64,000 nt of DNA, taken from contig DLST01000011.1 of NCBI GenBank assembly GCA_002500745.1, positions 246,836 through 310,835 on the forward strand, read 5' to 3'. This DNA comes from Sphingobacterium sp. UBA7855. Lineage in GTDB: Bacteria; Bacteroidota; Bacteroidia; Sphingobacteriales; Sphingobacteriaceae. Below the pieces are notes generated by a model that was not told the origin of the DNA, did no database searches, and saw only the letters and a program-made list of their open reading frames with translations. Position numbers and translations under genes: made by a program. Positions 16,701 to 44,024 of the stretch are shown one piece after another; positions within the stretch are counted from its first letter, which is position 1, and each line of letters starts with the position of its first letter.

Positions 16701-18950
16701 TTATCTATTTCCAGTCACAATTAGAATATCCTTGCTATTGACTAAAGTCTGGTGACTGATTTTAAATCCACTGAATGTTTTTCCGTCGATCACAATCTTT
16801 TTGATATATTCACCAGTCCCCTCTTTTTGGCGTCTTATAGTTACTCTATCGGCATTTGGATAGTATTTCTTATCGAGCTGAATAGTTACTTTATCAAATA
16901 CCGGGGTTACAACGGTGTAATCTGGTCTACCCGGACAAAAAGGATAAATACCGATCATGTTCATGAGTGCCCATGTGGACATCGTCCCCGTGTCATCATT
17001 ACCTGGTATACCACCGGGGCTGTTGGTAAAATGTTTTTCCAGTATTTCTTTCACCAACTTTTGAGTGCGCCATTCTTCGCCTTTAATTTCTGAAAACACA
17101 TGTGGATACAGCATATCCGGTTCATTTGTCACATCAAAATAACCCTTATCAAACGTTGCCTGAAGCCGATCTACAAATTTTTTCTTTCCGCCCATCAATT
17201 TCACCAAACCAGGAATATCAAATGGAATTGCAAAACTGTAATTCCAGGCATTACCTTCATGGAAACCATGGTTAGGTTCAAAATTAGCTCCCATCAATGG
17301 ATTAAATGGGCTCAAAAACTTGCCGGTGGGGAGGATAGGTCTGAAAGTCCCATACTCGGAAGAATAGTAATGTTTATACCCCTGCGCCCGCTTACCAAAA
17401 AGCTGTGCATCGTCGGTTTTCCCTAAAGAGGCAGCCAACTGCGCTAAATTCCAGTCCGCAACATAATATTCTATCGCATGCGATACGGAATTATCAAACG
17501 AATCGCGCAACGGTACATACCCATACTTCACATAATCCGCATTGTCAGGCCTAATTTTATTTTTTGAGTCAGTTGTAGTGGCAGATTTCAAAAAGGCTTC
17601 ATAAGCTGTATTGATATCAAAATCCCGAATACCTTTCATCCATGCATCAACGATCACAGGAATTGCGGGATCGCCATCCATCGTATAGCTTTCTCGGCTA
17701 TACAATTCCCATTTGGGCATCCAACCGTTTTCGTTATACATATCAATCATGGAACGTATCATACCCACCTGCTTATCGGGATAAACCAACGACATAAGCG
17801 GCTGTACATTTCTATAGGTATCCCATAGTGAAAACACTGTATAACGATTATGAGCTGCAACCAGAGTCTTCCGGCTCTCCATTGCGGGATACTCCCCATT
17901 CACGTCCTGTAAAACATTGGGATGAATCATGGCATGGTATAGTGCTGTATAAAACACGGTTTTCTGATCTTCCGTTCCACCCTCTACCTGTATCTTGGAC
18001 AAAGCATTATTCCATTGCAAAGAAGCCTGCTGATGCGTTTTCTCAAATCCCAAATCGGCCTGCTCGGCTTCTAGATTTTTACGGGCATTATCAACGCTCA
18101 CAAACGACACGGCAAGCTGTACCTCTAAACTTTCATTCTCTTGCACATCAAAGCTAAAAAATGAACCAAGATCATCACCCGAAAGCTGGTCTGTATAGTC
18201 TGTGAAAATTTTATATTTTCCAGCATCTTTATTCCAGTCATTTTCCCATTTTTCTCCCGCACGCTGGAATTTCCAGTAACCTCTTTTTGCGGGCTTTTTA
18301 TTGACACGCATGACGAAGAAAATTGGGTAAACAGCTTGATTATTACTGTAGCAGAAAGAGCCCAACAGCTTAGATCCTTCTATTTCAGTATCACTCACAT
18401 AACGAACTGTCGCCCCCGTTTCATTTGTTAAACCTTCGCCCAAATTGAGCAGGATATTTGCCTGCCCTTTTGGAAAAGTAAATTTTGAAACTCCCACACG
18501 TGCTGTGGCTGAAACTTCCGTCTTAATGTTATATTTCTTCAAAACGTTGCTGTAATATCCTGGATGGGCAACCTCTTGCGTATAGGTACTGCCATATTGA
18601 TGGTAATCAACCTCCAGTTTTCCCGCGGTTGGCATCAACAACAAACTTCCCATATCTGGACATCCTACTCCACTTAAATTGACATGCGAGAAACCTGTAA
18701 AATAGCTGTTGCTATGCTCATAGGGAGTTGACCACCATCTTGCATCTTTATCAAATGCATTAAGTGATGACCCCATTACATTAAAAGGGGAGACATTCAT
18801 TAAACCGTTGGGAACCTGAGCTCCCGGATTGGTTGTTCCATAATTGCTGGTACCGATAAACGGATTGACATAGTCGGCAGGAAGCTTTTGGGCAGAAATA
18901 TTCTCCCAAAGAAAGAATCCTAAAAATAAAAAATGAATAAATTTGATCAT
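16701..18950 (-). CDS. GH92 alpha-mannosidase-type glycosidase (secreted)
   Basis: A GH92 enzyme of 749 residues. The open frame reaches 19001, but the ATG at 18950 gives a clean signal peptide ('IKFIHFLFLGFFLWENISAQ'), so I use it. Landmarks are 'YVNPFIGTSNYGTTNPGAQVPNGLM', 'GFSHVNLSGVGCPDMGSLLLMP', 'TVFSLWDTYRNVQPL' and 'GNDDTGTMSTWALMNMIGIYP' (base Asp pair near 652-653). The acid motif reads 'TNEPDMLYPHVF' instead of the usual 'GNEPSHH'. This keeps the Glu (about 610) but loses the His pair, which suggests a different linkage or substrate from its neighbour. It is the first gene of the two-gene operon. Confidence 0.9.
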   Translation of the reverse strand: MIKFIHFLFLGFFLWENISAQKLPADYVNPFIGTSNYGTTNPGAQVPNGLMNVSPFNVMGSSLNAFDKDARWWSTPYEHSNSYFTGFSHVNLSGVGCPDMGSLLLMPTAGKLEVDYHQYGSTYTQEVAHPGYYSNVLKKYNIKTEVSATARVGVSKFTFPKGQANILLNLGEGLTNETGATVRYVSDTEIEGSKLLGSFCYSNNQAVYPIFFVMRVNKKPAKRGYWKFQRAGEKWENDWNKDAGKYKIFTDYTDQLSGDDLGSFFSFDVQENESLEVQLAVSFVSVDNARKNLEAEQADLGFEKTHQQASLQWNNALSKIQVEGGTEDQKTVFYTALYHAMIHPNVLQDVNGEYPAMESRKTLVAAHNRYTVFSLWDTYRNVQPLMSLVYPDKQVGMIRSMIDMYNENGWMPKWELYSRESYTMDGDPAIPVIVDAWMKGIRDFDINTAYEAFLKSATTTDSKNKIRPDNADYVKYGYVPLRDSFDNSVSHAIEYYVADWNLAQLAASLGKTDDAQLFGKRAQGYKHYYSSEYGTFRPILPTGKFLSPFNPLMGANFEPNHGFHEGNAWNYSFAIPFDIPGLVKLMGGKKKFVDRLQATFDKGYFDVTNEPDMLYPHVFSEIKGEEWRTQKLVKEILEKHFTNSPGGIPGNDDTGTMSTWALMNMIGIYPFCPGRPDYTVVTPVFDKVTIQLDKKYYPNADRVTIRRQKEGTGEYIKKIVIDGKTFSGFKISHQTLVNSKDILIVTGNR

Positions 18951-19153
18951 ATAATCTTGATAGGCGGCTTTGCTAATCGCTTTTGTTGAAGCAAACATCA
19001 TAGGCCGCGCATTTTAGCGTGTACCTACAATACTACAGATAATCAGAACGATTTACAAATCTTAATGACCGTTATATCGATGATTTTACGTTTGTTAATA
19101 GGTTTTAGCATAATTAAAAACATCAAGCCATGCTATTAATTTCAGTGAATAAC

Positions 19154-19220
19154 AATAAAAACCTGAAGCGGGGAACTTCAGGTTTTTATCAACTAACCAA
19201 TTATTAACCTAAATTATGAA
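19154..19220 (-). ncRNA. Copy D of a repeated small RNA-like element
   Basis: On the minus strand the element reads TTCATAATT, then TAGGTTAATAATTGGTTAG, a short spacer, and a hairpin AAAAACCTGAAG / CTTCAGGTTTTT (19157-19168 with 19176-19187) with loop TTCCCCG and a T-run after it. It matches three copies at 41.1-41.6 kb in the conserved stretch, in hairpin position and in the CCC loop, while the stem sequence differs. Here it lies between a GH92 remnant and the GH92 operon. Unlike copies A-C, it has no TTG at the -33 position. Confidence 0.6.
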
Positions 19221-19272
19221 ACTACTAGTATAACGCCATACATAGTCGTTTGTTATATGGTCGCCTGCGTTT

Positions 19273-19865
19273 AACTAAACTTTAACAAATCGGTGTCGTC
19301 ATAATCTCTAATCCCCATCTGATAGGCCCCGACAGTAAACGGTATTTCATGTTGTGCAACCATAACGGGTGTTTACTTCATTCCGTCTGGTTCTTTAGCC
19401 AACCAACCATTTGCGTCATACATTTCAAGCTGCGACCGGACCCTTTTATTGGAGAACTCGGGTGTAATCAGATTCCAAAATTGATTTAAATTCCAAAATG
19501 CATCATTGCTTAAAGTGCGATCCCCTTTATGGGATAAAATTCGTATCACTTCGTATGAGGTTCTCCATTCTCCATTGACATGGCTGAATGTGTTTCGGCT
19601 TGCCAAAACGAGATGCATATTGGTATATAACATCCCTTTTTCTAGACAATCTGAGGATCGCCGTCATAACCAAAATCATGTTCCAAAAATTTCTTATTTC
19701 CGTTAAGTGCAAAAGCAACCCCATTACTTGAATCGTTTGAATTTTCCAATTGGCAAATTGCATGCCCTTGCCCTAAGGCAGACTGTCAACACATCAATAT
19801 CAGACCAGCCGCAAAAGAAAGTTAACCACTTAGCAAAACGTTTAAAATTAAGAATTTAAGTAAAA
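19273..19865 (-). pseudogene. Remnant of a third GH92-like glycosidase
   Basis: Reading the minus strand from 19865, one frame gives a signal-peptide-like start ('KFLILNVLLSG', stop, 'LSFAAGLILMC', stop, 'QSALGQG') and then 'GVAFALNGNKKFLEHDFGYDGDPQIV' and a stop. After a frameshift follow 'SNDAFWNLNQFWNLITPEFSNK' and 'SQLEMYDANGWLAKEPDGMK', and after a further break 'PVMVAQHEIPFTVGAYQMGIRDYD'. The last pieces are the catalytic-core pattern of GH92 enzymes ('AFWN.N..WNL', 'W..SQLEMYD..GWL', 'EIPF.VGAYQ.GIRD'). The start, several stops, frames and most of the length are damaged or missing, so it is a decayed gene, in the same orientation as the intact pair. Confidence 0.65.
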
Positions 19866-38294: not shown

Positions 38295-40127
38295 TTATTG
38301 AATCATTTGGAATATTCCGTTATTCTTTTTGAGATTTAACAAGGCATCCCTATAGGGAGCCATTAAGTATCTCGGGGTTAAAATTGGAGACTTCAAGACC
38401 CCTTTTAAAGTGAGCTCCTCGACAATTGGTATATAATCTTCACGGATTTTGCCCATAGTTAAAAGTGCAACTTCCCTTCCGCTTTTGATATAATTGGTCA
38501 ATTCTATTAATCCACTCAAGTACAATGCATCTTTTGTAAGCCCACCACTTCTATAGACTCGCATTGTCATTTGGAAAGCAGTTTCGTGCAAAAATTGGTA
38601 CTTGTCTACTAGAAGTGAGAACGTATCAATAAATGAATTGCCTTGCTGCATATGATGCACAGCAATAACTCTTCCAGCTAGGATACGCAATCTATTATTG
38701 GTCAGCCCTCCGACTAAATATTCGGCGAGCACAGCGAGACCTTCCTGAAGTTTTTCATAACCAGGAACTCCAAGTCTAAAAAGGCTGAAAGGTTGCTGTT
38801 TCCCATTATAGTAGGTGACAATGTGTGTTCCAACTTCATGCTGTATGAGTGCCTTTACCCTATTACGTGGTAAACTGTACTGCTTGCTTATGTTGAGCAC
38901 ACCTTGGTTGACCATCACACCGTAGATGTCATCGCGAAGTCTTACTGTCGTTCCAAAGTTTGGATCTTGGCTTTTCAAATAATCCAATTCCTCCTGAGCC
39001 AGCTTGGCGAATTCCTCAGCGTAAACAATGTCTTCGTCTTTTGTCCTCACTTCTCGATCAGTTGTGGTAATCGTTAGGATTGCTTGTGCTTTTTCCAATA
39101 ATTTCTCATTAACTGTACCAAAAACTTGCATACTTCCGAGCAAGAACCCCTCTTTTCCACGCTCACTCAGCATTGTCATCATCTGGTCGAGCTCTTTTCG
39201 TTTATCACGAAATAAATAGGCCATGGAGGGATCAAATAAATCTTCTATATGCAAATTATAAAGATTCCTTTTAATAATATCTGGATCGATAGGCATGGGC
39301 CTATAGCGGAATACAGGTGTTTTTCGATAATTCCCTTTCTTAAATTGTTGCCAAGCATCGTAAGAATTTGTCGGAGTAATCAACAGCAAAAAATCAAATC
39401 TTTGGCTCTCTCGAGCCAATTTCTGATCAATTTCCCATGCTAAAGGAAGCATCTTTTTTGGCTGGCTGATTTTAAATGCAGTAGGTTTCGATAATGTATG
39501 TATACGAATGAACTCAAAGAATGTTTTAGACAAGCTTCTAGATATGGCTTCACGGAAATGGCGCAGATCGATCGGTAAAATCTGCTGATCTACTCCTAAT
39601 AGATACTTAGGTTTTACCTCAAGCCCCATGTAAAATATATTTGTGTTTAGATTATCCAATTGAATACTTGACGGTGACAGACTCTGCGTTGCATTCGTTT
39701 TTGATTCCGTCAGTATTTCTACTTTGGAAATCGACTCTTCAGTAGTCAGTTGCTTTACTAAATATTGAGCAATCGACTGCACGTTTTTACGGGCAATGTG
39801 GATTAAAATATCCTCTTCCTGCCCAGGATCTGATGCCCAGACTTCAATGATTAGACAAGCACCAAACTCCTCTACGAGTTTGTTTAGTATAGGTGCAATC
39901 CATTCAGAAACATTCATCCGCTCATCTCTTACTTTAAAATAAGCTGGTTCTGACTTGACCAACTCTGCAAGCATGGGATCTGGACTCAAAAACTGTCGGT
40001 ATAAAAATAGATAAGGAACGATTTGATTGAATACCAATTTATTCTTAGACGGAATTTGTGCGTGAAAAACTTCCTTGTTTTTGATCATTTTTAAAATGCC
40101 AGCAAGTTGTTTCGCATTATCTTTCAT
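38295..40127 (-). CDS. QEGLA-motif metallopeptidase (DUF1704)
   Basis: A 610-residue protein of the family annotated 'flavohemoglobin expression-modulating QEGLA motif protein'. It has a metallopeptidase signature 'QHEVGTHIVTYY' (H-E-x3-H, 430-435) and the family hallmark 'LQEGLAVLAEYLVGGL' (461-476), whose Glu is the likely third zinc ligand. The N-terminal 300 residues are a large mixed domain. The ATG at 40127 is chosen over a TTG at 40133; it overlaps the stop of the upstream gene by 11 bases, so translation is coupled. Its substrate is not known. Confidence 0.85.
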   Translation of the reverse strand: MKDNAKQLAGILKMIKNKEVFHAQIPSKNKLVFNQIVPYLFLYRQFLSPDPMLAELVKSEPAYFKVRDERMNVSEWIAPILNKLVEEFGACLIIEVWASDPGQEEDILIHIARKNVQSIAQYLVKQLTTEESISKVEILTESKTNATQSLSPSSIQLDNLNTNIFYMGLEVKPKYLLGVDQQILPIDLRHFREAISRSLSKTFFEFIRIHTLSKPTAFKISQPKKMLPLAWEIDQKLARESQRFDFLLLITPTNSYDAWQQFKKGNYRKTPVFRYRPMPIDPDIIKRNLYNLHIEDLFDPSMAYLFRDKRKELDQMMTMLSERGKEGFLLGSMQVFGTVNEKLLEKAQAILTITTTDREVRTKDEDIVYAEEFAKLAQEELDYLKSQDPNFGTTVRLRDDIYGVMVNQGVLNISKQYSLPRNRVKALIQHEVGTHIVTYYNGKQQPFSLFRLGVPGYEKLQEGLAVLAEYLVGGLTNNRLRILAGRVIAVHHMQQGNSFIDTFSLLVDKYQFLHETAFQMTMRVYRSGGLTKDALYLSGLIELTNYIKSGREVALLTMGKIREDYIPIVEELTLKGVLKSPILTPRYLMAPYRDALLNLKKNNGIFQMIQ

Positions 40128-40896
40128 AGGCAAAATAATTTTCCAGTGTTTCTATACTTTGCAAAAGAAGTTGCTTATATTCCTGTAGTTTTTGTGGAAA
40201 AACTTCCCCCGTCCACTCATCCATAAAATCTTTCCTAAATTCTATCGAAAAAATACAGCCTTTATCGCCAAACTTACTATTCAAGTACGCAGAAAGAAAA
40301 CCACCTTTAAATTTCACATTCTCACGCACGTCGTAAACTTGCCCATCTTTTCCAGTTTGTAATACTTTTAATAACTGATCAGTCAATTCTCTCCATTTTT
40401 GGTGATTATGTTGCGTACCTAAATTGATTTGTGGATCGGTAGCAGTGTTCAAGATTGCTTCAGGTCCTTCGCGCCGCATGTTGTAGCTATGAATATCATA
40501 GATGACAAAATAACCATAACGATCAATAGTATGCTGAATATGCTGACATACATCTGCATACACACGGTCATAAATCGCATATAACTCATTTATCTGCCCC
40601 TGTGGCAATGCTGCTCGCCAAACACGCAAGCCCCAAGATTGCTCAGGTTTAAGATAAATAGCATCTTCTCGCTTTCGGTTCAAGTCTAATTGAAACCTAG
40701 ACGTTCCAGACACGAACCTATTGAAAGGTAACTCCGCCAAAAGAGCCGTGTAAGGATCCTCCTCCCGTAATCGCTCCTCTTCAGAAATATTAAAATTGAG
40801 TAGTATATTATCGTCGACGTGATGACCATCATGTATTGCAAAAGCCCAAAATGGACTTTCTTTATTTTCAAATTGATAACGGTATGTTAGTGACAT
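40117..40896 (-). CDS. N-formylglutamate amidohydrolase-like protein
   Basis: A 259-residue protein of the N-formylglutamate amidohydrolase family (a zinc amidase related to carboxypeptidases). Landmarks are 'FAIHDGHHVDDNILLNFNISEEERLREEDPYT', 'RFVSGTSRFQLDLNRKREDAIY', 'YFVIYDIHSYNMRREGPEA', 'LNTATDPQINLGTQHNHQKW' and 'VKFKGGFLSAYLNSKFGDKGCIFSIEFRKDFMDEW'. The open frame starts at 40974, but the ATG at 40896 begins the conserved part. It is the first gene of a three-gene operon. There are no histidine-degradation genes nearby, so the formylglutamate role is unlikely and the true amide substrate is open. Confidence 0.82.
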   Translation of the reverse strand: MSLTYRYQFENKESPFWAFAIHDGHHVDDNILLNFNISEEERLREEDPYTALLAELPFNRFVSGTSRFQLDLNRKREDAIYLKPEQSWGLRVWRAALPQGQINELYAIYDRVYADVCQHIQHTIDRYGYFVIYDIHSYNMRREGPEAILNTATDPQINLGTQHNHQKWRELTDQLLKVLQTGKDGQVYDVRENVKFKGGFLSAYLNSKFGDKGCIFSIEFRKDFMDEWTGEVFPQKLQEYKQLLLQSIETLENYFAYER

Positions 40897-41105
40897 AGAC
40901 TTTTTTTTGTAGTTTATGAAAACAAGGCCATATTGATTGATAGCCCCCTGTGTTAAATTAACAGCTATGACCAAAAAAAAGTTTGAAAATAAAACGGATT
41001 ACCGCTATAATCAGAAACCTTTCTCATTACTCAAGTAAGTGCATGTTAAAAATCGTTAAACGGCGGGTTCTATACAAAGTGTTGGCATCTTTCTTGAATA
41101 AAAAA
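40897..41105 (+). promoter_or_regulatory. Divergent promoter region before the small RNA repeats
   Basis: The region between the leftward cassette and the first small RNA-like element. TTG at 41082-41084, 21 bases before TAGTAGTTTC (41106), fits the Bacteroidota promoter layout. The same spot also reads TTGGCAT-N5-TTGAA, a near match to the sigma-54 -24/-12 pattern. The choice between the two cannot be made from sequence. Confidence 0.45.
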
Positions 41106-41112
41106 TAGTAGT

Positions 41113-41183
41113 TTCATAAAGTTAGGTTAATAATTTAGTTAGTTTATAAAAAACCTGTTAGTATACCCACTAACAGGTTTTTT
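41113..41183 (+). ncRNA. Copy A of a repeated small RNA-like element
   Basis: TTCATAAAG, then TTAGGTTAATAATTTAGTTAG, then an A/T-flanked hairpin CCTGTTAG (41154-41161) / CTAACAGG (41170-41177) with loop TATACCCA and a T-run to 41183. It is the first of three copies in tandem at about 200-base spacing. The putative transcript would be about 70-75 bases. The conserved 5' stretch is identical in type to copies B, C and D; the stem differs. Confidence 0.65.
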
Positions 41184-41319
41184 ATTTCTAGAAGGAGATC
41201 TTATAGAAAATATGATTGTTTGTTGAATTCCGCTCTTAATTATTAAAAAATGTTAAAATTTGAAATAAAGGATATGAAATGGAAACATTTTTTGAAGATA
41301 CTACGTTATATAAGTACTT

Positions 41320-41386
41320 TTCATAAATTTAGGTTAATAATTGGTTAGGAAAACTCCTGTTAGCTCCCAGCTTCAGGAGTTTCTAT
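41320..41386 (+). ncRNA. Copy B of a repeated small RNA-like element
   Basis: TTCATAAATT, then TAGGTTAATAATTGGTTAG, then a hairpin AAACTCCTG (41351-41359) / CAGGAGTTT (41374-41382). Within the loop AGCT-CCC-AGCT extends the stem. A TTG at 41292-41294 lies 20 bases before TACTTTTC (41315-41322), a good promoter of the Bacteroidota kind. The weak tail (CTATTTTA) makes it the poorest terminator of the set. Confidence 0.6.
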
Positions 41387-41533
41387 TTTATCCATTTATT
41401 GAAAATAATAAAAGACAGCACATATCACAGCGACCAGATTTATTAATTTACTTTCATTATGTCACATTTGAATGGCGAGTACCATCACATAAAGAAAATG
41501 TTTTTTGGCACAGCCTTTGTACTGTTTTAAGCA

Positions 41534-41602
41534 TTCATAAATTTAGGTTAATAATTGGTTAGTTAGAAACACTTGAAGTTCCCCGCTTCAAGTGTTTTTT
41601 TT
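41534..41602 (+). ncRNA. Copy C of a repeated small RNA-like element
   Basis: TTCATAAATT, then TAGGTTAATAATTGGTTAG, then a strong hairpin AAACACTTGAAG (41567-41578) / CTTCAAGTGTTT (41586-41597) with loop TTCCCCG and eight Ts. TTG at 41505-41507 lies 20 bases before TAAGCATTC (41528). The T-run is only on this strand, which fixes the direction of transcription. The loop and inner stem are shared with copy D. Confidence 0.68.
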
Positions 41603-41644
41603 ATAGTTGTACACTATATAATATAAAAAACCGTCGGCTTATAT

Positions 41645-42892
41645 TCAGTTGACCGTTTCCACCAATTGCTTCAGGGCAATTTCGTAGGCTCTTGACGAAA
41701 CATGAGTCTTTTGCGGAGAAAATGCCTTGATTTTTTTGAGTGCTTCAAAAATCACTTTAGAAACATCCGAAAAAATTGCATCATCACTAATTTCGATATT
41801 GCGTTGCATTAAATAGGCAAATACTCTCGCCATGCCACAATTGGCAATAAAATCTGGTATAACTGCAACATGCTGGTCAGCAAACTCCATAACAGGTCCA
41901 TAAAATATTTCCTGATCAGCAAATGGAACATTCGCACCGCAAGCAATTACCTCAAGTCCGTGATCTATCAGATGTTCAATCTGATCTTTCGAAACTAATC
42001 GCGAAGCGGCGGCGGGCACGAAAATATCTGTTTGTAAATTCCAAATCTGTTTTTGTATCTGATCAAAAGGGATCAAGTTTGCTGCATGAAGTTCATTACC
42101 TTTCCGTTCTAAAAACAAGCGAGTGATAGCTACCTCATCAAAGCCTTCCGGATTGATCAATCCACCAGCACGATCGATTATTCCGACGACTTTAACCCCT
42201 AGTTTCGACAGATAAAATGCTGCTGCGGCAGCAACATTTCCCCAGCCCTGAATCACCGCACGCTTTCCAGCACAATGCGATCCAAAAAGCTCGTAGTAGT
42301 GGCGAATTGACTCTGACACGCCATAACCAGTGATCATATCTGCCACTTTGTACTTTCGTTTCAGATCTGGACTGTAGGAACTGTCCTCCAATACTTTGGA
42401 AACCCCATAGCGCAATTGTCCAATTTGGTGAATGCGATTGCTTTCATTCACCTTAAAGTGTCCATTCAAGATTCCTTCTTGTGGATGCCACAGTCCATAT
42501 TCTTCCGTCAATGGAATGACATCATGAATTTCGTCTATGTTCAGGTCCCCACCTGTCCCATAATAATTCTTCAATAGCGGTGTGACAACCTTAAACCAAC
42601 GTTCTAATACTTCGTTTTTCCTTGGGTCGTGTGGGTCGAAATCAATGCCCGATTTTGCTCCACCAATTGCAGGGCCCGATACCGTAAACTTAACCTCCAT
42701 TGTTTTGGCCAGAGATTCTACCTCATGCCTATCCAATCCAGCTCGCATCCTTGTTCCACCACCAGCAGCCCCCCCACGCAAAGAATTGATCACAATCCAT
42801 CCTCTTGCATCCGTCTCGCTATCTTTCCATTCGAAAACAATTTCGGGGCTTTTATGCTCAAACGCCCGTAATAACTCTTTCATCTCTCCCAT
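41645..42892 (-). CDS. Glu/Leu/Phe/Val-type amino acid dehydrogenase
   Basis: A 415-residue NAD(P)-dependent dehydrogenase. 'GWIVINSLRGGAAGGGTRM', 'MEVKFTVSGPAIGGAKSGIDFDP' (catalytic Lys in GGAKSG) and the Rossmann 'RAVIQGWGNVAAAAAFYLSKLGVKVVGIID' are clear. The GTG at 42925 is in frame, but the ATG at 42892 has AGGAAATT upstream and lies 4 bases after the hppD stop. It would deaminate an amino acid to its 2-oxo acid. Position downstream of hppD and hmgA suggests a role in aromatic or branched amino acid breakdown; it might stand in for the tyrosine aminotransferase that is absent from the cluster, but this is inference. Confidence 0.85.
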   Translation of the reverse strand: MGEMKELLRAFEHKSPEIVFEWKDSETDARGWIVINSLRGGAAGGGTRMRAGLDRHEVESLAKTMEVKFTVSGPAIGGAKSGIDFDPHDPRKNEVLERWFKVVTPLLKNYYGTGGDLNIDEIHDVIPLTEEYGLWHPQEGILNGHFKVNESNRIHQIGQLRYGVSKVLEDSSYSPDLKRKYKVADMITGYGVSESIRHYYELFGSHCAGKRAVIQGWGNVAAAAAFYLSKLGVKVVGIIDRAGGLINPEGFDEVAITRLFLERKGNELHAANLIPFDQIQKQIWNLQTDIFVPAAASRLVSKDQIEHLIDHGLEVIACGANVPFADQEIFYGPVMEFADQHVAVIPDFIANCGMARVFAYLMQRNIEISDDAIFSDVSKVIFEALKKIKAFSPQKTHVSSRAYEIALKQLVETVN

Positions 42893-42896
42893 ACTA

Positions 42897-44024
42897 CTAT
42901 AAATTTCCTCGACGTTCCTGTTCACGTTCTATCGCTTCAAAAAGGGCCTTGAAATTTCCTGCTCCAAAGCTTTGTGCCCCTTTTCGCTGGATGATCTCAT
43001 AAAATAAAGTTGGCCTATCTTCTACAGGCTTCGTGAAAATCTGCAGCAAATACCCCTCTTCGTCACGATCGACCAGAATTCCAAGTTCTTGAATGATCCG
43101 TATTTCTTCATCAATTTTTCCAACTCGCTCGGGCAACATATCGTAATAGGCTTCGGGTGGGGCACCCAAAAACTCTACTCCTCTTGCTTTAAGTGCTTTC
43201 ACCGTAGCAACGATATCTCTCGTTGCCAACGCAGCGTGCTGTACGCCTTCTCCCTCATAAAACTCAAGGTATTCTTCAATCTGCGACTTCTTTTTCCCTT
43301 CAGCAGGCTCGTTAATCGGGAACTTGACATAGCCATTTCCATTGCTCATCACTTTACTCATTAGCGCGGAATACTCGGTATTAATCTGCTTGTCATCGAA
43401 AGACAGGATGTTGACGAAACCCATGACATCCTGATACCATTTCACTGTTTCGTTCATCTTATTCCATCCGACATTACCAACACAATGGTCGACATAAAGC
43501 AGACCTGTCTCACTTGGATTGTAATCACTTTCCCATTTTTCATATCCCGGCATAAATGTACCGGAATAATTCCGCCGTTCGACAAATAGATGGACCGTTT
43601 CGCCATAGGTATAGATACCGGCAGTCCAGACTTCCCCATTTTCATCCTTCATAAGCTGTGGTTCCTGATATACCTTTGCTCCTCTTTTTGTTGTTTCTTC
43701 AAAAGATTTTCGGGCGTCATCTACCCAAAGCGCTAATATTTTAACGCCATCACCGTGTTTTTTAACATGTTCTGCGATGGGATGATCAGATTTCAGCGCC
43801 GTGGTGAGCACCAAACGTATTTTATTCTGTTTGAGCACATAGGATACCCGATCTCGAACTCCTGTTTCAGGTCCGGCATAAGCATCCGACTGGAAGCCAA
43901 ATGCGGTCTTGTAGTAATGCGCCGCTTGCTTCGCATTACCAACATAAAATTCAATATAATCGGTTCCATTGATAGGTAGAAAATCTTGCGCTTGGGCAAT
44001 CTTTTCTGCAAATGTATTTGCCAT
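42897..44024 (-). CDS. hppD: 4-hydroxyphenylpyruvate dioxygenase
   Basis: A 375-residue HPPD. It is an Fe(II) enzyme that converts 4-hydroxyphenylpyruvate to homogentisate with O2. The iron ligands are His180 ('YVDHCVGNV'), His263 ('VQHAALATRD') and Glu343 ('LFYEIIQRKG'). The N-terminal vicinal-oxygen-chelate half opens with 'NGTDYIEFYVGNAKQAAHYYKTAFGF'. It lies between hmgA (34 bases upstream) and the amino acid dehydrogenase gene, in one operon. Confidence 0.95.
   Translation of the reverse strand: MANTFAEKIAQAQDFLPINGTDYIEFYVGNAKQAAHYYKTAFGFQSDAYAGPETGVRDRVSYVLKQNKIRLVLTTALKSDHPIAEHVKKHGDGVKILALWVDDARKSFEETTKRGAKVYQEPQLMKDENGEVWTAGIYTYGETVHLFVERRNYSGTFMPGYEKWESDYNPSETGLLYVDHCVGNVGWNKMNETVKWYQDVMGFVNILSFDDKQINTEYSALMSKVMSNGNGYVKFPINEPAEGKKKSQIEEYLEFYEGEGVQHAALATRDIVATVKALKARGVEFLGAPPEAYYDMLPERVGKIDEEIRIIQELGILVDRDEEGYLLQIFTKPVEDRPTLFYEIIQRKGAQSFGAGNFKALFEAIEREQERRGNL

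Follow-up and report, generated by a model that had tools for sequence, protein, structure and literature searches.

Small RNAs (sRNAs) that silence SusC genes are a kind already known, with laboratory proof in FopS. According to the available part of the FopS report (PMC11697453), B. thetaiotaomicron has 14 FopS sRNAs, which pair with the start region of susC and repress translation, and the RRM_1 protein RbpB antagonises them. The same part of the report describes FopS, by long-word BLAST, as a Bacteroidaceae family tied to RbpB that is conserved in Bacteroidaceae and also present in one phage, and its authors state no strong sign of sub-diversification in B. thetaiotaomicron (PMC11697453). 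The Bacteroides sRNA GibS resembles the element studied here in that it carries the R1 seed type, as does FopS, and acts at start regions (PMC11697453, PMC7366714; available parts of both). It differs in its length (~145 nt), its single described locus, its non-canonical promoter motif PM2 and its targets, as far as these parts report. The sibling sRNAs Qrr and LhrC, named in the available part of PMC11697453, are a further likeness, i.e., several copies feeding one process.

Here, we analysed a window of 64,000 nucleotides, i.e., the whole stretch presented above, in which we find four copies (w1 to w4) of a putative sRNA element: three in tandem on the plus strand and one on the minus strand ~22 kb away (Table 1). 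The near-invariant 5' stretch of the element is UUCAUAAAUUUAGGUUAAUAAUUGGUUAG, followed by an intrinsic terminator. That is, a single-stranded 5' seed precedes a terminator hairpin within ~65-75 nt, where length and ends are taken from the sequence only. The common layout of three copies, proposed in an earlier reading of the sequence alone, is borne out by 29-nt repeats starting at 41113, 41320 and 41534, which are spaced by 207 and 214 bases and form the sole direct-repeat family of at least 14 bases reported in 40975-41644. Allowing for up to 3 mismatches, a 19-mer of the element has 3 matches in the window vs. 0.01 expected from shuffles, by which a chance repeat is rejected; one of these matches is w4 (19193-19211, minus strand). 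Copy w1 is outside this match set and reads AATTTAGTTAG where the others read AATTGGTTAG, such that the 5' stretch is nearly invariant, as had been claimed, in three of the four copies but not in w1. That it is the reverse complement of TTATTAACCTAAATTATG (w4) or ...AAATTTATG (w2, w3) also proved correct. The tandem copies w1-w3 are located between two minus-strand genes, one N-formylglutamate-amidohydrolase-like (40117-40974) and the other encoding a Glu/Leu/Phe/Val dehydrogenase (41645-42925). Among the loci compared, the proteins flanking this cluster adjoin an element only in loci of G001, the nearest genome compared (78% of sampled words in common with the window), most loci having short flanks. 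The covariance model R1 was built from 20 copies, including all four of the window, and the scores of the latter (57-87 bits) are thus high by construction; the informative part is the gap to the next match in the window at 15 bits.

Table 1. Coordinates of the putative sRNA copies, their parts and upstream promoter-like sites within the window.
Feature	Position	Strand	Basis
sRNA copy w1, seed variant UUCAUAAAGUUAGGUUAAUAAUUUAGUUAG and terminator	41113..41187	+	R1 57.3 bits, E 2e-10 (window)
sRNA copy w2	41320..41388	+	R1 68.9 bits
sRNA copy w3	41534..41603	+	R1 86.5 bits
sRNA copy w4	19151..19220	-	R1 83.8 bits; exact 19-mer
5' single-stranded seed of w1, 29 nt	41113..41141	+	direct repeat family
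5' seed of w2, 29 nt	41320..41348	+	direct repeat family
5' seed of w3, 29 nt	41534..41562	+	direct repeat family
Terminator hairpin of w1, loop ATACCC	41150..41181	+	sequence
Terminator hairpin of w2, apical part with CTCCC	41350..41382	+	sequence
Terminator hairpin of w3, loop TCCCC (within TTCCCCG)	41565..41599	+	terminator scan
Terminator hairpin of w4, loop TCCCC (within TTCCCCG)	19157..19187	-	sequence
Sigma-54-like -24/-12 site GGCAT-N5-TTG of w1, 30 nt before TCAT	41084..41096	+	sequence; class statistics
Sigma-54-like -24/-12 site GGCAC-N5-TTG of w3, 28 nt before TCAT	41507..41519	+	sequence; class statistics
GTTAA-N5-GTTAA pair upstream of w1	41045..41059	+	sequence; class statistics
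GTTAA pair upstream of w4	19271..19286	-	sequence; class statistics

Each of w1-w4 is followed by a hairpin and a T-run, in accordance with the intrinsic terminator already ascribed to every copy. A simple terminator scan of both strands of 40975-41700 reports three sites vs. 0.3 expected, two of them at copies, and misses the terminator of w1. In an alignment of 105 matches (91 distinct rows) drawn from 92 chosen sources, 95.2% of the hairpin cells are paired; this alignment was fitted to the structure and thus leans towards it. The stem covariation of the distinct rows is 0.943, compared to at most 0.302 for slid and 0.284 for shuffled alignments, so the co-variation once claimed from four copies holds on a much broader basis. 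Two-sided changes are observed for all 10 stem pairs, a count that by itself is not above shuffles (9.7). The CCC said to be kept in the loops is present in the window copies and in 90/91 loops of the family, while only 1 of 134 other terminators (from the examined G001 sequence and the window) shows it; when the same strict terminator filter is applied, only 4 elements pass, all four with CCC. For a pairing of this loop with GGG near SusC starts, we observe no clear enrichment (24/56 SusC vs. 59/182 control leaders).

Outside the window, the 19-mer with one free base is found in 36/36 genomes of the genus with 4-26 copies each and in 0/23 genomes of other families; the reversed 19-mer is absent from all 59. 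Running the covariance model over Sphingobacteriaceae genomes, as the sequence-only reading had suggested, reveals further copies in 118/151 genomes from 20/25 genera (E <= 0.001, where E-values are rough owing to short calibration and genera g25 and g197 are near the limit). Sphingobacterium, Mucilaginibacter, Parapedobacter and Olivibacter are the named carriers among the matches listed. R1 counts at least 22 copies in G001 and at least 7-31 in 19 Sphingobacterium genomes; scoring covered 33 candidates per genome, which makes these numbers lower bounds. Among 295 genomes sampled across the class, 13 that do not belong to Sphingobacteriaceae show one weak match each (34-44 bits). By eye, the weak matches L187-L189 from outside the family look real. 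A plasmid search gave no match for the element.

The Rfam model of FopS (RF04319, BTncRNA_FopS) scores w2 with 20.9 and w3 with 17.5 bits at a threshold of 56, and lists no match at w1 nor, in the gathering-score scan, at w4. No copy reaches the gathering score; we reject membership at threshold in any Rfam family. The alignment at w2 is full-length, with UUUUCAU and AGGUUAAUAA in common. Among 395 genomes of the phylum, RF04319 matches in 6 (5 over threshold), none of them Sphingobacteriaceae (12 candidates per genome, stricter filters). Conversely, R1 applied to 11 loci fetched with RF04319 finds one FopS copy weakly (19.1 bits) and one other place (11.2). Both kinds have many paralogues per genome, ~65-70 nt in length, with an unstructured 5' seed in front of a terminator hairpin, and UUUUCAU and AGGUUAA are common to their core seeds. 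SusC start regions are proven pairing sites for FopS and predicted ones, in silico, for the Sphingobacteriaceae element, and phages carry both (one phage in the available part of the FopS report, 30 viral contigs for the element). They differ in the spacing of UUCAU and AGGUU (5-6 nt vs. ~13 nt in FopS), in an extra AUUGGUUAG of the Sphingobacteriaceae element, in its CCC loop, which none of the FopS loops read shows, and in its subclass with a sigma-54-like promoter and a GTTAA pair. We call the Sphingobacteriaceae element a FopS-like family, i.e., a divergent many-copy counterpart that the Rfam criterion does not place within FopS. The two may plausibly share descent, and by analogy the element may work like FopS. 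As far as the literature searched shows, the lineage, the loop, the promoter classes, the absence of RRM_1 in Sphingobacterium and the number of viral copies are new: with most subscription papers outside its coverage, the search found no description of sRNAs from Sphingobacterium, Sphingobacteriaceae or Pedobacter, of sigma-54 sRNAs in Bacteroidetes or of receptor exclusion by phage sRNAs.

We read the element as a multi-copy, trans-acting sRNA that occludes the start regions of SusC-type genes, to which we assign a probability of roughly 0.8. Besides the observed gene anatomy, co-variation, copy number, distribution, promoter classes and SusC-specific complementarity of seed and leader, this reading comprises transcription, binding, repression and signals of the sRNAs, which we infer. 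Each copy would be the gene of a separate sRNA of ~65-75 nt, in which a terminator hairpin follows the unstructured 5' end UUCAU...AGGUU(A/U)AUAAUUGGUUAG. Acting in trans, its UUUUCAU would pair with AUGAAAA at the start codon of the target, while AGGUU and AUUGGUUA would bind the leader immediately ahead of it, which is rich in AACC/TAACCAAT. The predicted targets are mRNAs of SusC-type transporters and of some other glycan-utilisation genes, on which the paired ribosome site could no longer start translation. Near-identical copies behind different promoters may then convert several signals into one output, i.e., lower glycan uptake across the outer membrane. The sequence-only reading, which had named trans-acting RNAs against SusC-type start regions, is largely right, with transcription and repression by the window copies being predictions; it is favoured by spread, co-variation, short antisense ORFs and SusC-specific complementarity.

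To assess this complementarity, we used the SusC genes of G001 (at least 56 by TIGR04056, which are the best part of the set, since 56/154 first-look candidates were scored) and, as controls, 182 ORFs from 15 G001 stretches placed without regard to SusC, some of which may be unscored SusC relatives. The 56 SusC leaders show a mean duplex energy of -13.16 kcal/mol with the real seed compared to -10.55 (sd 0.50) with dinucleotide-shuffled seeds, and 0/120 shuffles reach the real-seed mean, in a test that ignores folding, accessibility and kinetics and on leaders whose paralogues and orthologues are not independent. The control leaders show no difference (-10.28 real vs. -10.29 shuffled; 66/120 shuffles reach the real seed). 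In G492, from another genus, the respective values are -14.53 and -11.39 (0/100 shuffles reach; 30/56 scored SusC genes). For the FopS-bearing genome G293, the FopS seed yields -16.09 vs. -11.95 (z -7.2; 30/46 SusC genes over the cut-off), so the duplex method also recovers the laboratory-proven kind. By z-score, each seed is strongest on SusC leaders of its own lineage. Cross-lineage pairings are weaker yet beyond nearly all shuffles (z -2.8, -2.5, -2.8), which means that SusC leaders in general account for some of the signal. Energies of -16 kcal/mol are reached by 14/56 SusC leaders vs. 4/182 controls; with complementarity being this partial, some SusC genes may fall outside the target set. 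The AUG is covered by the pairing in 47/56 SusC and 146/182 control leaders, and the SusC excess thus lies in strength, not position. Among all 467 ORFs scored, the ten best-pairing include 7 SusC genes vs. 1.2 expected. Outside SusC, the ten strongest pairings involve a rhamnogalacturonan lyase, GH67, GH32, GH43, SusD, a hybrid sensor, a TonB receptor, a sugar dehydrogenase and two fasciclin-domain proteins, from an ORF sample in which glycan loci are overrepresented, 25 of its stretches having been chosen around SusC genes. Within the window, none of the four ORFs of at least 600 codons is SusC-like at its start, as judged by eye.

In the duplex tests, the start codon is the best-pairing in-frame ATG, equally for shuffles, which is avoided by counting hexamers in leaders picked without the seed. 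Here, AACCAA (17/56 SusC vs. 5/182 control leaders), TAACCA (12/56 vs. 1/182) and ACCAAT (12/56 vs. 4/182) are the three most enriched of 908 hexamers. All three are part of the seed's reverse complement, which holds 26 of the 908 hexamers and 5 of the top 10. Of the start-region motif expected earlier, the TAACCAAT half carries the SusC-leader signal, and the literal motif AACCTAAA occurs in 0/56 SusC leaders of G001. Together with the frequency of CCTAAA (7/56 vs. 2/182 controls), this gives the AUUGGUUA half more weight than the AGGUUAA half. Changing the seed in silico also suggests this order. The SusC-minus-control difference of 2.88 kcal/mol (z 7.6) drops to 0.67 (z 2.7) for a change of AUUGGUUA, to 1.08 (z 4.3) for AGGUU and to 2.07 (z 4.5) for CAU; that is, the SusC preference is weakened without being abolished. 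It may also be that the seed just mirrors a leader motif whose role lies in translation.

The complementarity would equally fit RNAs that do not repress SusC, i.e., sponges or activators that titrate or stabilise SusC leaders or other sRNAs by pairing. We consider this unlikely, as the pairing is located at the start codon and immediately ahead of it, i.e., at the site from which repression by FopS has been demonstrated (PMC11697453, available part). Less probable still are elements that act in cis, i.e., leaders or terminators of neighbouring genes on either strand. Each unit does read as a leader plus ATG in antisense and ends with a terminator, w4 is located ~150 bases upstream of the ORF 16701-19001 on the same (minus) strand, and within islands of other genomes the ends of convergent genes closely follow some of the terminators. 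However, the antisense ORFs starting at that ATG have a median length of 8 codons among 248 distinct copies, with 5 reaching 50 codons and one running off its stretch, and we hence reject leaders of opposite-sense genes, a check that the sequence-only reading had itself put forward. Furthermore, the plus-strand ORFs between the window cluster and 45531 oppose minus-strand genes with Pfam matches, and the unit of promoter, seed and terminator is kept while its flanks differ.

For the promoter analysis, we used 212 non-redundant upstream regions (243 distinct before thinning), grouped by seed into class A (AGGTTAATAATT, 86 regions) and class T (AGGTTTATAATT, 126 regions). Class A shows GGYAY-N5-TTG in 46/86 regions (shuffled mean 0.5, maximum 4), with 43 sites placed 26-31 nt before TCAT, a spacing as would be expected of a -24/-12 element of sigma-54. 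The canonical Bacteroides promoter TAnnTTTG is found in 88/126 class T regions (12.8 expected), where 65 sites are 12-13 nt before TCAT, compared to 12/86 (9.5 expected) in class A, which includes the window copies. The split is not clean, i.e., 12/126 class T regions (0.64 expected) also have the sigma-54-like motif. With regard to the nearest site, class A comprises 46 sigma-54-like, 5 TAnnTTTG and 35 other regions and class T 5, 65 and 56, respectively; seed class and promoter are associated with a Fisher p of 7e-22, computed without the 'other' cells and over related copies that are not independent. Both seed classes have equal SusC preference (z 7.6 each). A pair GTTAA-N3-8-GTTAA, mostly 64-69 nt upstream, is present in 73/212 regions vs. 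1.2 expected (47/86 in class A, 26/126 in class T; 0.3 and 0.5 expected). Pair and sigma-54-like site occur together 21 times in 2.37 Mb, 20 times before an element, in a search for which many loci were picked because they bear one. All window copies fall into class A. The sigma-54-like site is present upstream of w1 and w3 and the GTTAA pair upstream of w1 and w4, while w2 has neither in full. The promoter proposed earlier (TTG, 20-21 bases, TA) is not the best reading, given that w1 and w3 carry the sigma-54-like GGYAY-N5-TTG. RpoN (PF04552) is encoded in 7/7 genomes. Among the multi-copy sibling sRNAs, Qrr genes are sigma-54 dependent.

A 25-mer with one free base is found in 30 IMG/VR contigs (L388-L417), all with the exact class T seed and varied hairpins. 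Among their 19 different bodies, 12 show a CCC at some point after the seed. PHROGs for terminase, portal, major head, tape measure or integrase are matched by 7 of the 9 neighbouring proteins that we tested. Antisense ORFs of the viral copies span 4-53 codons, with one of the 30 running off its stretch. ARAGORN calls a tRNA ending 7-9 nt before TCAT in 3/30 viral stretches and some tRNA in 13/30. Searches of the named-phage collection (E up to 10) yielded 108 and 13 records, all covering less than 80% of the query. The match in Tenacibaculum phage JQ (E 0.01, 27.5 bits), a seed-like stretch with no evident hairpin in the sequence read, was dropped, as were weaker matches in Cellulophaga and Bacteroides phages. 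A mobile repeat without cellular role that carries its terminator by chance would be in line with up to 31 copies counted per genome, clusters in variable islands and viral carriage, but is the least probable explanation in view of the compensatory stem changes, the retained CCC loop, the promoter class tied to the seed variant, the SusC complementarity and 45 aligned copies with nothing in common seen beyond the gene.

The RRM_1 partner of FopS is RbpB. PF00076 (RRM_1) gives no match in the family sample's 19 Sphingobacterium genomes, which carry at least 7-31 copies apiece, nor in any of 4 Sphingobacteriaceae genomes of a further search. That is, the sRNA exists in Sphingobacterium without a recognised RRM_1 protein. 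It is possible that a divergent RRM protein was missed there; PF00076 has 3 matches in the FopS-bearing G293 and is present in 67/151 Sphingobacteriaceae genomes. Qrr in Vibrio is based on Hfq, for which the 7 genomes searched show no match.

SusC/TonB-type proteins serve as phage receptors in Bacteroidota, and phages may gain from carrying sRNA copies. On a tentative and rather doubtful wider reading, one seed would serve three masters: host genes under the housekeeping sigma factor, a subclass under sigma-54 and a GTTAA regulator, and phages, some of whose copies follow tRNA genes such that tRNA processing could free the 5' end. Phages would then use the host's off-switch to remove SusC/TonB-type surface proteins, some possibly receptors, and thereby exclude competitors, all without RRM_1 proteins and with the CCC loop of host copies docking another partner. 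If SusC silencing by a shared seed holds in Sphingobacteriaceae that lack RRM_1, it would be a wider principle of the phylum to which an RRM_1 RNA-binding protein is not essential. Seed variants tied to different promoters would amount to the sub-diversification for which the FopS authors state no strong sign in B. thetaiotaomicron, and the viral copies would offer a way to test whether receptors are silenced by a borrowed RNA seed.

Some copies are preceded by tRNA-like sequence (L231:6132-6330, L182, L185, L199, L300, L313), in which ARAGORN calls no tRNA, nor does Rfam (L182, L185, L231, L300). This may be a degenerate tRNA from which processing releases the sRNA. In L177 (G538:C2:2889546-2890791), six copies within ~1.25 kb form a tandem cluster that exceeds the one of the window in length. 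Islands with many same-strand copies are seen in L128-L131 (G035:C6:150001-230000), with similar clusters in L132-L138, where the conserved unit is promoter, sRNA and terminator only. In L130-L131, the copies are located among two PD-(D/E)XK nuclease-family transposases (PF12784), Nudix, MutS-like and a macro-domain gene. Near 12032 of L130 and 2455 of L136, identical foreign sequence replaces the promoter of both copies, as if recombination had broken inside the seed region.
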